Shown piece after piece: positions 18,043-21,670 of a stretch of 36,752 bases of DNA. Made by a program: the position numbers and the translations under genes. The stretch lies in assembly GCA_012523545.1 (NCBI GenBank), contig JAAYIH010000049.1, forward strand, positions 107,841 through 144,592, written 5' to 3'. Numbering within the stretch: the stretch's first letter is position 1; each line of letters starts with the position of its first letter. The notes beneath the pieces were generated by a model. That model made no database searches and was not told the DNA's origin. It worked only from the letters and a program-made list of their open reading frames with translations. The DNA is from Bacillota bacterium. GTDB lineage: Bacteria; Bacillota; Proteinivoracia; UBA4975.

Positions 18043-18898
18043 GAGCGGCTTTGCAGCTGTTACCGGCCTTGCCAACGCTGGTAAGTCGACCCTTATCAAC
18101 GGCCTGATGCAGGAGCGCTTGCTCATCACTTCGGAGAAAAAGCAGACTACCCGTAATCAGATTCGGTGCATATTGACAGGAGAGGATTACCAGATTATCC
18201 TGGTGGATACCCCCGGCATCCACCAGCCCAAAAACAAGCTGGGGGAATACATGCTCAGGGAGGTTGCCTCCGCCATAAAAAACAGCGACGTTGTCCTGTA
18301 CATCGTCGATGCAACCAACCCGGATGTGGATTTGTTTTCTAACTTCACAATTGCCAAGCCGGTAATTTTAGCCCTCAATAAAGTGGATTTGCTCTCTCCG
18401 GCCGACACCGAAGCGCTGGTTGCTCAATTCAGCGCCGACCCGCGCTTTGCGGCGGTGGTGCCGGTGGCCGCCCTGCATGGCCAGAATCTGGACCGTTTAA
18501 TTGCGGTCATCAAAGATTTTTTGCCTGCCGGCGATTTCTTGTACCCGCCTGACCAGGTAATGGACGCCAATTTCCGCTTTATTGCTGCTGAACTGATCAG
18601 GGAGCAGGCCCTGCTGCACCTCGACGATGAAGTGCCCCACGGCATCGCAGTGGAAATCGATGAATTCAAAGAAGATGAACGTGAAGCCAGAATTTCGGCG
18701 ACAATCAATGTTGAAAAAGAATCCCATAAAGGCATAGTCATCGGACGGGGAGGCAGCATGCTCAAAAAAATCGGCAGCTCTGCGCGCCTGAAAATCCAGG
18801 AGGCAATGGATAAGACCGTGCATCTTAAGCTGTGGGTGTCGGTTAAAAAGAACTGGCGCAAAGATCCCAATCAACTGAAATGGCTGGGGTATAAATGA
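18029..18898 (+). CDS. era: Era, ribosome-assembly GTPase
   Basis: A 289-residue GTPase that binds the 3' end of 16S rRNA during small-subunit assembly. G1 is GLANAGKS (13-20), G3 DTPG (60-63) and G4 NKVD (117-120). The C-terminal KH domain shows GIVIGRGGSMLKKIG (235-249). The P-loop is unusual: most Era proteins read GRPNVGKS, but the invariant G-x4-GKS is intact, so activity is expected. It overlaps cdd upstream and recO downstream (ATGA), giving tight coupling. Confidence 0.95.
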   Translation: MAIVKSGFAAVTGLANAGKSTLINGLMQERLLITSEKKQTTRNQIRCILTGEDYQIILVDTPGIHQPKNKLGEYMLREVASAIKNSDVVLYIVDATNPDVDLFSNFTIAKPVILALNKVDLLSPADTEALVAQFSADPRFAAVVPVAALHGQNLDRLIAVIKDFLPAGDFLYPPDQVMDANFRFIAAELIREQALLHLDDEVPHGIAVEIDEFKEDEREARISATINVEKESHKGIVIGRGGSMLKKIGSSARLKIQEAMDKTVHLKLWVSVKKNWRKDPNQLKWLGYK

Positions 18899-19650
18899 GG
18901 CTGGAAAAACACACCGGTTTTGTGGTCTACGGTTTTCCGTTGGGTGAAGCGGACCAGATTGTCTCCTGTTTCACCAGCGAGGGGAATCTGGTAAAGTTCA
19001 TCGCCAAGGGCAGCCGCAAAATTAAAAGCCGCTTCGCCGCTTCGGTCCAGCTCTTTAACCTGGCGGAGTTTGTGCTATATAAATCCAAAGGCCTGCCCTA
19101 TCTCCGGCAGGCCGCAATTATTGACAGCTTTGCGCCTGTGCGCCGTGATTGGCAAAAAAGCGGCGCTGCTTTTGCTGTCGCCGAGCTCTGCCGGTTGCTG
19201 ATTGGGGAGGAGGCGGGCGAACAGGCAGTTTTCAGACATGTGCTGGCATACATGCTCCACCTTCGGGACCGGGATTATGTGCCGCTGACCTTTGATGCCT
19301 TTCGCTGGCAGTTGGCGGCAGCGTTGGGTTATGGCATGCAGACCGAACGCTGTGCGATTTGCCGGCAGGCCGCGCGCAGCGGCTGCATGGATTGGAGCCA
19401 GGGGGGCCTGGTCTGCCCGCGTTGCCGTTCCCGCACAGGTGGGGTTGGCGTTGATGTCCGTCATTTGGCCTTGCTCCGCACCCTGAGCCGGTGTTCTTTT
19501 GCCGAAAGCGATAAGCTGGCGGTGAATGGCAACCTGCAACGCCACTGCGCCCGGCTGGTCGACGATCTAATATTTTGGCTTACAGAGGGAAAGACTAAAG
19601 CACAGGCTTTCCGCAAGCTGTTTGAAGAACTGAGGTGCAGGAGCGAGTAA
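18895..19650 (+). CDS. recO: RecO, recombination mediator
   Basis: A 251-residue protein that loads RecA in the RecFOR pathway and anneals SSB-coated DNA. The N-terminal OB fold carries GFVVYGFPLGEADQIVSCFT, and SRKIKSRFAASVQLF is typical. A four-cysteine zinc site is formed by C153, C156, C174 and C177 (CAIC and CPRC). The era-recO order is conserved across Firmicutes. The gene ends one base before the start of the glycyl-tRNA synthetase-like gene, whose ribosome site (CAGGAG, 19638-19643) is inside recO. Confidence 0.94.
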   Translation: MRLEKHTGFVVYGFPLGEADQIVSCFTSEGNLVKFIAKGSRKIKSRFAASVQLFNLAEFVLYKSKGLPYLRQAAIIDSFAPVRRDWQKSGAAFAVAELCRLLIGEEAGEQAVFRHVLAYMLHLRDRDYVPLTFDAFRWQLAAALGYGMQTERCAICRQAARSGCMDWSQGGLVCPRCRSRTGGVGVDVRHLALLRTLSRCSFAESDKLAVNGNLQRHCARLVDDLIFWLTEGKTKAQAFRKLFEELRCRSE

Positions 19651-19651
19651 A

Positions 19652-21466
19652 TTGGATTTTTTAATGGAATTTTACTTCCGGGGCCTGACCGGCAAACAAA
19701 CGCAAAAAGCGTACGACTTTGCCACAAAAGAATTTAAAGCAGAAATAAACGCGATGCATGTTGAGCAGTACAAGCTGGAAGTGTTTTTCAGCAAGTACAG
19801 GCTTGTGATGTGGTTGCGGCTGGGGGAAGCGGGTTCCGCCGGGCTGAGAAAGAAATTGGCCGGCGCTGTCGGCGTACTGCTGCGCAAGTTTGCGGAGAGT
19901 CTTCCCGAGGTCTGGGCCCGCGTTAACGGCATGGCGACCTTAACTGATAATGGCTTTTTGCCGGTGCAATTTGGGACAATGCAGTCCAAACCGGTAACCC
20001 GGGTCGGAACTGCGCACATACCTTTGCGCAATGCGCATCATTATTGGCGAGAGATGGGAAAACGTAAAGTTCTGGTCGACAACGGGCAGAGGGAAAAAGA
20101 AATCCGCGCCATGCTGTCCCAGGCAGCTGCACAGGCTGGCGGGGAAGTGGTCTCGTCTCCCATTATGAATGACGTTGTCATGACTGCGGAACGTCCTGTG
20201 CTCAACGTCATTACCGTAGATGAAAAATACATAAACCTGCCGGAAACACTCCTCACTATTATTTTGGACCGTAATCTGTGTTTTGCCATACGGTCTCCGG
20301 AAGGCCGTCTGCTCAGCACGGTACTGTATATCAGCAACGCAGCCAGCCGGCGCCCGCGCCTGGCTGCAGATTTGGCCAGAGCGGAAGAAAAATTCGCTGC
20401 TGATTTGGGCATCCCCATCTCACTGCGTCAGCAATGGCTCAGGGATATGCTCTGCCCGAGCGGGCTGGGCAGTATGTGGGAAAAGCAAATGCGCCTGCAA
20501 AAAATTGCCCTGGCCATTGCAGAGCACGCTGAAGCGGGGGAAAATGTTTGCGCTGTGGCCCGGGAGGCTGCGGAATTGGCCAAGCTGGACCTGACCACCG
20601 AAATTTGTCAGCTCTACCCCGAGTTTAGCGGTTATATGGGCGCCCTTATTGCAAGGCACAACGGAGTTGAGGATATGGTCGCCAGTGCCATCGTTGAGCA
20701 TTGGGGTCCGGGTCGGTATTCCCGGGGCTTGCCCCACACCCTGGTGGGGGCTCTGCTGGCCATTGCCGACCGCCTGGACGATATCTGCGGCCACTACTAC
20801 CAGAGTGAATTCCGGTTATCCCACTACCGCGCAGTCAAAACCTGGTTTGACGAAATTATTGCCATTTTGGACAGCGTCGCCCTGGATGTTTCCCTGACCA
20901 GGCTGTTGCGCTTTTCCCTGTCCCTCTATGAATCCCAGGGACTGGTGCCATGGCAGGAAAAAGATCTGGCCAATCTGCTCAAGGTCTTCGTTGACAGGCT
21001 TTATTGGCACCTGGTGGACCGGGACTTTGCCGAAGGTGTGGCCTCGGCTCTGACAGCGATTAACCCGGATAATGTATATTCAACTATGCAAAAAGCCATT
21101 GTGCTGAAGGACGAAAACAACTGCGCCATGGTGGAGAACTGTAAAGAAGCCTGCCGGTTGCTGGACAGGATTTGCGCCAGGGAATACAGCTATCAGGAGG
21201 CTGCCCGGGAATATTTTGAACAGCCTGAGGAAAAAGAGCTCTTCGAGGCATACTTAACGGTTCGGCAAGACGCCGAGGAGCTTATCAAGGCCAGGGATTT
21301 TGCCGGCGCCTTGGCGAGACTGGCCCGGCTAAAAACGCCGCTGTTGCGTTTTGTCAATTCAGTGGACCTGGATACCGAGGACAAACCGGTGCGCTACAAC
21401 AGACTAAGCTTGCTGGCAGAAATTCGCCGCCTCTACCATGCTTTTGCCGATTTTAGCATGTTGTGA
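19652..21466 (+). CDS. Diverged GlyS-like protein (glycyl-tRNA synthetase beta-subunit relative), without alpha subunit
   Basis: An intact 604-residue protein that aligns by eye along its length with the GlyS beta subunit (usually about 690 residues). Retained parts: LPETLLTIILDRNLCF with EGRLLSTVLYISN (196-229); AAELAKLDLTTEICQLYPEF and GYMG (306-330); AIVEHWGP and GALLAIADRLDDICGHY (346-382); and RYNRLSLLAEIRRLYHAFAD near the end. Lost parts: the N-terminal GTEELP (here FRGLTG, 9-14), the HQ.YF motif (RNLCF, 207-211), and PTGS/DPFALRR after the ADKLDTL-like stretch. No glyQ adjoins it and there is no T-box leader. The start is TTG 19652, so the protein begins DFLMEF like DLLLEI of GlyS. It may be repurposed or a fast-evolving synthetase subunit; function uncertain. 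Confidence 0.72.
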   Translation: MDFLMEFYFRGLTGKQTQKAYDFATKEFKAEINAMHVEQYKLEVFFSKYRLVMWLRLGEAGSAGLRKKLAGAVGVLLRKFAESLPEVWARVNGMATLTDNGFLPVQFGTMQSKPVTRVGTAHIPLRNAHHYWREMGKRKVLVDNGQREKEIRAMLSQAAAQAGGEVVSSPIMNDVVMTAERPVLNVITVDEKYINLPETLLTIILDRNLCFAIRSPEGRLLSTVLYISNAASRRPRLAADLARAEEKFAADLGIPISLRQQWLRDMLCPSGLGSMWEKQMRLQKIALAIAEHAEAGENVCAVAREAAELAKLDLTTEICQLYPEFSGYMGALIARHNGVEDMVASAIVEHWGPGRYSRGLPHTLVGALLAIADRLDDICGHYYQSEFRLSHYRAVKTWFDEIIAILDSVALDVSLTRLLRFSLSLYESQGLVPWQEKDLANLLKVFVDRLYWHLVDRDFAEGVASALTAINPDNVYSTMQKAIVLKDENNCAMVENCKEACRLLDRICAREYSYQEAAREYFEQPEEKELFEAYLTVRQDAEELIKARDFAGALARLARLKTPLLRFVNSVDLDTEDKPVRYNRLSLLAEIRRLYHAFADFSML

Positions 21467-21502: not shown

Positions 21503-21670
21503 TTGAACCGACTGGACAAGATTGAGATCCTGTTAATCAAGATTTTGATGGCGCTGGCCTGCGGCCTGGCCTTTTTTCAGTATGCTGCTGCCCACCCCCG
21601 CTGGTCGCAAATCCTGGTCTTGCTCAACCACATTGAGGGGGCAATATACCAAGGCGGCGGCTGGCCATAG
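21503..21670 (+). CDS. Small one-pass membrane peptide, unknown
   Basis: A 55-codon frame starting with TTG 21503, seven bases after GAGGGAG (21489-21495). It encodes MNRLDKIEI, a hydrophobic segment (LLIKILMALACGLAFFQYAA) and a short tail ending GGGWP. The good ribosome site and the coherent charged-then-hydrophobic pattern support a real gene. I do not recognise a family. It lies 36 bases after the GlyS-like gene on the same strand and could share its transcript. The following 186 bases (21671-21856) hold no gene that I can support, only a weak -10-like TATAGT at 21831. Confidence 0.55.
   Translation: MNRLDKIEILLIKILMALACGLAFFQYAAAHPRWSQILVLLNHIEGAIYQGGGWP

Follow-up and report, generated by a model that had tools for sequence, protein, structure and literature searches.

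The gene that follows recO in this genome of the Bacillota is best explained as a relict of a superseded alpha-beta glycyl-tRNA synthetase (GlyRS), which has probably been retained as a stand-alone protein with a non-synthetase role centred on its HD pocket. We give this reading as a whole a probability of about 0.75, and regard the repurposing of the protein, taken by itself, as still more probable. The gene is here called the orphan, and the window is the whole stretch of 36,752 nucleotides that was analyzed.

The recO-linked gene and its product

The two genes concerned were located as follows.

18895..19650, + strand: recO, directly upstream, ending 1 nt before the orphan start; it marks the ancestral glyQS site
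19652..21466, + strand: orphan GlyS-beta-like protein, 604 aa, TTG start; assigned from profile matches, profile-profile alignment and predicted structure

The orphan frame contained no internal stop codons, began 1 nt past the recO stop codon, and was preceded by a GGAG 8 nt 5' of its TTG start, which agreed with the full-length 604-codon frame described in the first-pass annotation. Its neighbours were recO on one side and, on the other, a small ORF followed by cmk, with no adjacent glyQ. The ORF list showed no glyQ anywhere in the window, and no T-box was found in the window either; the earlier statement that both are missing therefore holds for the window, but for glyQ it does not hold for the genome, in which a different contig carries glyQ together with a normal glyS. 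The gene order era-recO-orphan was common to six genomes (G000-G003, G005 and G006). This coupling suggests that the orphan is expressed along with genes for RNA and DNA maintenance; the neighbours carry little weight, however, because they were inherited from the glyQS operon site. The small ORF, a 55-codon frame at 21503-21670 (+) between the orphan and cmk, was conserved throughout the family f1 (six genomes) and had no Pfam match; with its hydrophobic stretch (LDKIE..LIK...LLN..EGA.Y), its product resembles a small membrane protein that has escaped annotation.

The orphan protein was compared with GlyS families and structures. It matched Pfam PF02092 with an E-value of 2.4e-49 (169 bits, against a cut-off of 29.2), TIGR00211 with an E-value of 1.6e-75 (255 bits, below the equivalog cut-off of 300 bits), and E. 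coli GlyS with an E-value of 7.5e-28. The relatives L066 and L060 likewise scored below 300 bits on TIGR00211. Profile-profile alignment with canonical GlyS (hhalign) extended over the full length (602 columns, E 1.4e-69), with the B2 domain deleted. The AlphaFold model had a pLDDT of 92.5 and a pTM of 0.82, and its best match in the PDB was E. coli GlyS (7yse_C; TM 0.84, E 2.8e-31). The PDB matches that reached significance (E up to 0.001) were all to alpha-beta GlyRS or its fused form; among the 13 rows was 9a71_B, an integrative model with the title BUK-SYGB, and we take it from this name to contain GlyS. The data showed the orphan to be genuinely related to the GlyRS beta subunit in homology and predicted fold, so that the relationship proposed at first pass was borne out by both the profile searches and the structure prediction.

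Catalytic, tRNA-contacting and pocket residues

Residues of E. coli GlyS whose roles have been published (PMC8464048, PMC9908026) were mapped on 107 canonical GlyS, six orphans and three GlyS-like proteins of a sister family, f4. The regions of the orphan were assigned as follows.

19652..20071, + strand: B1-domain equivalent, about residues 1-140, with a deletion of the B2 insert (E. coli residues 66-124; hhalign, f4 alignment, limits from PMC8464048)
20072..20413, + strand: B3-domain equivalent, about residues 141-254; the Arg326/Asp329 stretch is gone (role of Arg326/Asp329, PMC8464048)
20414..21016, + strand: HD-domain equivalent, about residues 255-455; pocket residues kept (pocket from PMC8464048)
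20819..20839, + strand: S.YR.VK segment, residues 390-396, replacing the acceptor-stem/U73 loop H18-H19 (GDKDPFALRR in E. coli; loop role, PMC9908026)
21017..21463, + strand: anticodon-binding-domain equivalent, about residues 456-604; Arg585 changed to Leu and Asn588 to Arg (roles, PMC9908026)
21362-21373, + strand: loop H27-H28, changed to V-D-L-D, in the anticodon-binding-domain equivalent

Arg326 and Asp329 of GlyS, which assist ATP binding at the active site of alpha (PMC8464048), were present in 100% of the 107 canonical GlyS and absent from all nine orphan and f4 proteins. The losses of GTEELP, HQ.YF and PTGS/DPFALRR reported earlier were also confirmed, the last of these now reading S.YR.VK. 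The residues that contact tRNA were changed as well. The orphans had lost B2, the acceptor/U73 loop residues Gly473, Asp476, Arg481 and Arg482, and the anticodon residues Arg585 and Asn588, and Met658, which neighbours the C35 contact, was replaced by a fixed Asp. Arg531 was retained in five of the six.

The main alternative is that the orphan has kept the ability to bind tRNA-Gly or some other tRNA, with no part in charging, and serves for instance in tRNA chaperoning, sequestration or stress sensing. In GlyRS it is GlyS that binds the tRNA, its overall fold appears to be retained in the model of the orphan, and Arg531 persists in most orphans; moreover, the f4 GlyS-like proteins keep the B2 insert, Asp476, Arg585 and Asn588, and judging from these residues tRNA binding may have survived in them. 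However, the orphans themselves lack B2, the H18-H19 loop and both anticodon residues and carry the Asp at Met658, and in E. coli deletion of B2 or of the loop cripples the tRNA step (PMC8464048, PMC9908026). We therefore regard a role in tRNA binding as possible but rather improbable. The tRNA- or RNA-binding job suggested at first pass is accordingly weakened with respect to tRNA, while binding of another RNA is possible. The pI of the orphans (5.0-6.9) did not point to stronger RNA binding.

The changes in the tRNA loops were not scattered. Five of the 16 sites in the two tRNA loops had switched and then become fixed in every orphan, against three of 102 elsewhere (n = 8 in all, P = 0.001, with loop ranges set post hoc on an alignment already seen), and the loops therefore look rewritten rather than left to drift. 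The HD domain was preferentially kept (22 of 56 sites, against nine of 62 in the other domains, P = 0.003). The pocket residues K278, R281, K311, D313, D373, R374 and D376 of the orphan correspond to K364, R367, K394, D396, D456, K457 and D459 of E. coli GlyS. Lys364, Arg367, Lys394, Asp456 and Asp459 were retained in all nine proteins; in the orphans Lys457 had become Arg and Tyr434 was changed. Enrichment of pocket residues among the kept HD sites was weak (P = 0.10), and the kept pocket residues could be structural. The catalytic His-Asp doublet of HD-superfamily hydrolases was absent, with Ala310-Lys311 of the orphan at the position of Ser393-Lys394, and E. coli GlyS also lacks this doublet (PMC8464048). 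The HD pocket of GlyRS has been described as a possible allosteric site, for which the nucleotides tested gave no ligand (PMC8464048).

Working synthetases, distribution and origin

The glycyl-tRNA synthetases of the orphan-bearing genomes were then compared. In the genome of the orphan, contig C27 carried an adjacent pair of normal genes, glyQ (509 bits) and glyS (699 bits), and no match to single-chain GlyRS exceeded the cut-off. Contamination by C27 was rejected, since every f1 genome carries both genes. No T-box was found at glyQ of this contig; a T-box leader at L070:15810-16011 (-), also on C27, lies beside trpS, downstream of glyQS. Because the genome has this normal pair on another contig, the orphan is not the glycyl-tRNA synthetase subunit of the cell. 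The first-pass annotation had reasoned that another GlyRS in the genome would mean a different job for a protein that has been kept, and the pair on C27, together with the selection on the orphan described below, agrees with that reasoning. The refuting case that it named, a glyQ elsewhere with the orphan as the only and normal beta subunit, is contradicted by the second, normal glyS.

An orphan together with a normal glyS and glyQ was found in all six f1 genomes, which belong to two genera; in G004 the orphan was split by contig ends. In G006, of family f2 in the same order, the orphan was present, glyQ was absent, and a single-chain GlyRS was encoded. The orphan therefore does not need GlyQ and works without it. 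A model of the f4 GlyQ-like proteins, used to look for a relic GlyQ, matched no GlyQ in f1 other than the normal one and had no match in G006. In G007 (f3, same order), rated 94% complete, no glyS, glyQ or recO was found and single-chain GlyRS gave only a partial match of 182 aa below the cut-off; the gene absences are probably assembly gaps.

These distributions bear on two further alternatives. The orphan might join the normal GlyQ as a second beta subunit, alternative or regulatory, and in this way modulate GlyRS, as all f1 genomes have both proteins and B1 and B3, which contact alpha, are partly retained. This is unlikely, given an orphan without any GlyQ in G006 and the loss of the residues that reach the alpha active site. 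That the orphan is a strongly diverged but working synthetase subunit, as its membership of the GlyS profile family would allow, is the least credible of the alternatives: the genome has a normal GlyQS, the ATP and tRNA determinants are lost, and G006 again has no GlyQ for it to work with.

We also analyzed the recO neighbourhood in the sister family f4, which belongs to this class. In G008, G009 and G011, a small gene stood after recO, encoding a DUF4342 protein in G008; next came a GlyQ-like gene and then a GlyS-like gene of full length. These genomes encoded a single-chain GlyRS elsewhere.

L067:8030-10808, L068:6854-9653 and L069:6758-9576: f4 pseudo alpha-beta GlyRS pairs after recO

The GlyQ-like proteins (255-265 aa) kept 16 of 125 canonical-invariant GlyQ sites and lacked the class II motifs. 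The two GlyS-like members scanned scored above the TIGR00211 cut-off, and such proteins would be named glycine--tRNA ligase beta subunit, which calls for caution in annotation. Within f4, the pair was absent from G010, in which recO is followed directly by the next genes of the neighbourhood, and from G012, in which other genes follow.

The orphan is under purifying selection and is a protein in use. For the closest pair of orphans (G002 and G003), dS was 0.60 and dN was 0.07, a ratio of 0.11, and that of the f1 canonical glyS was about 0.15-0.29. Frames were full-length in the six assembled copies examined, and invariant stretches such as SLSLYESQGLVPW persisted among proteins only 39-40% identical at the extremes. 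The description of the gene as eroded was thus wrong for the gene overall, and fits only the synthetase-specific sites. Decay towards a pseudogene would accord with a function that seems dispensable in part of the class, where the recO site of G010 and G012 has no pair; with full-length frames (except for G004, cut by contig ends), a dN/dS of about 0.1 and long invariant stretches, it is very unlikely.

The origin of the gene was investigated by gene order and phylogeny. recO upstream of glyQS was found in Bacillota, Desulfobacterota and a spirochaete, and the arrangement is old. In the tree, the orphans and the f4 GlyS-like proteins lay on one side of a branch (support 100/99) that separated them from 46 canonical GlyS, while f1's own canonical GlyS was nested among other Bacillota GlyS; long branches may draw the orphans and f4 together. 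A clade of the orphans with the present glyS of f1 was not rejected by the AU test on a smaller tree (P = 0.12), and a late duplication of f1's own glyS is thus formally possible. It is the less apt explanation, because it leaves G006, the f4 pair and the ancestral location unexplained.

In a phylum sample of 250 genomes, judged by per-genome counts and best E-values, two distinct glyS genes occurred only in f1 and a strongly diverged complete glyS only in this class, among the matches listed. Double or weak glyS hits in other lineages of the sample were split genes or fragments. A single-sequence protein scan of genome contigs with the orphan gave no matches; among the matches listed for an alignment-based scan, UBA5496, UBA5509 and AS09scLD_363 were followed by canonical GlyS. 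A published description of such a protein was not found in the literature searched on GlyRS paralogues and glyS.

Proposed history and comparison with known systems

We infer the following order of events. The orphan would be a vertically inherited remnant of the ancestral recO-linked glyQ-glyS operon of the class. Charging of tRNA-Gly would have passed to another enzyme, a single-chain GlyRS in f2 and f4 and an acquired alpha-beta GlyRS in f1, whose present GlyQS was probably acquired. The alpha subunit would first have lost its active site, a state still seen in f4, and then vanished in f1 and f2, while beta was retained. Left without the residues that support glycine activation and without the known tRNA-Gly determinants, the orphan would act alone as a non-catalytic binding protein around the conserved charged HD pocket. 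The pocket would hold a ligand, and the old acceptor and anticodon contact loops would have been re-specified for a new partner, either another RNA or a protein. This mechanism of pocket plus new partner is tentative. We consider it more doubtful still that the pocket is a ligand site separable from charging, which was freed as a stand-alone sensor or adaptor after GlyRS was replaced.

The case is of interest in that a beta subunit has outlasted the death of its catalytic partner, with an intermediate of dead alpha plus beta surviving in the sister family. A protein that has the pocket without the charging apparatus would also allow the role of the pocket to be tested apart from aminoacylation.

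In comparison with GlyS, the beta subunit of the bacterial heterotetrameric GlyRS (PF02092, TIGR00211; E. coli 7yse, 7eiv), the orphan shares homology over the full length, the fold, the order B1-B3-HD-anticodon, the HD pocket residues and the position after recO. However, it has no adjacent alpha gene, lacks B2, Arg326, Asp329, loop H18-H19, Arg585 and Asn588, scores below the TIGR00211 cut-off, and coexists with a normal GlyS. The f4 pairs occupy the same site after recO and have lost the same ATP-contact residues, and f4 uses a single-chain GlyRS encoded elsewhere, like G006; unlike the orphan, f4 still has a motif-less GlyQ-like gene, B2 and some of the tRNA contacts.

Retired synthetases with other jobs are known, and those named in PMC9437257 derive from catalytic enzymes. 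Like such paralogues, the orphan coexists with a working enzyme and is under selection, and it presumably has an alternative role; we would class it among the proteins that derive from synthetases but have a role other than charging, its source being the GlyRS beta subunit. HisZ is likewise a synthetase descendant that no longer charges tRNA and persists alongside the normal enzyme (PMC9437257), but HisZ-type paralogues arose from a catalytic core, whereas the orphan comes from the non-catalytic beta subunit of GlyRS.
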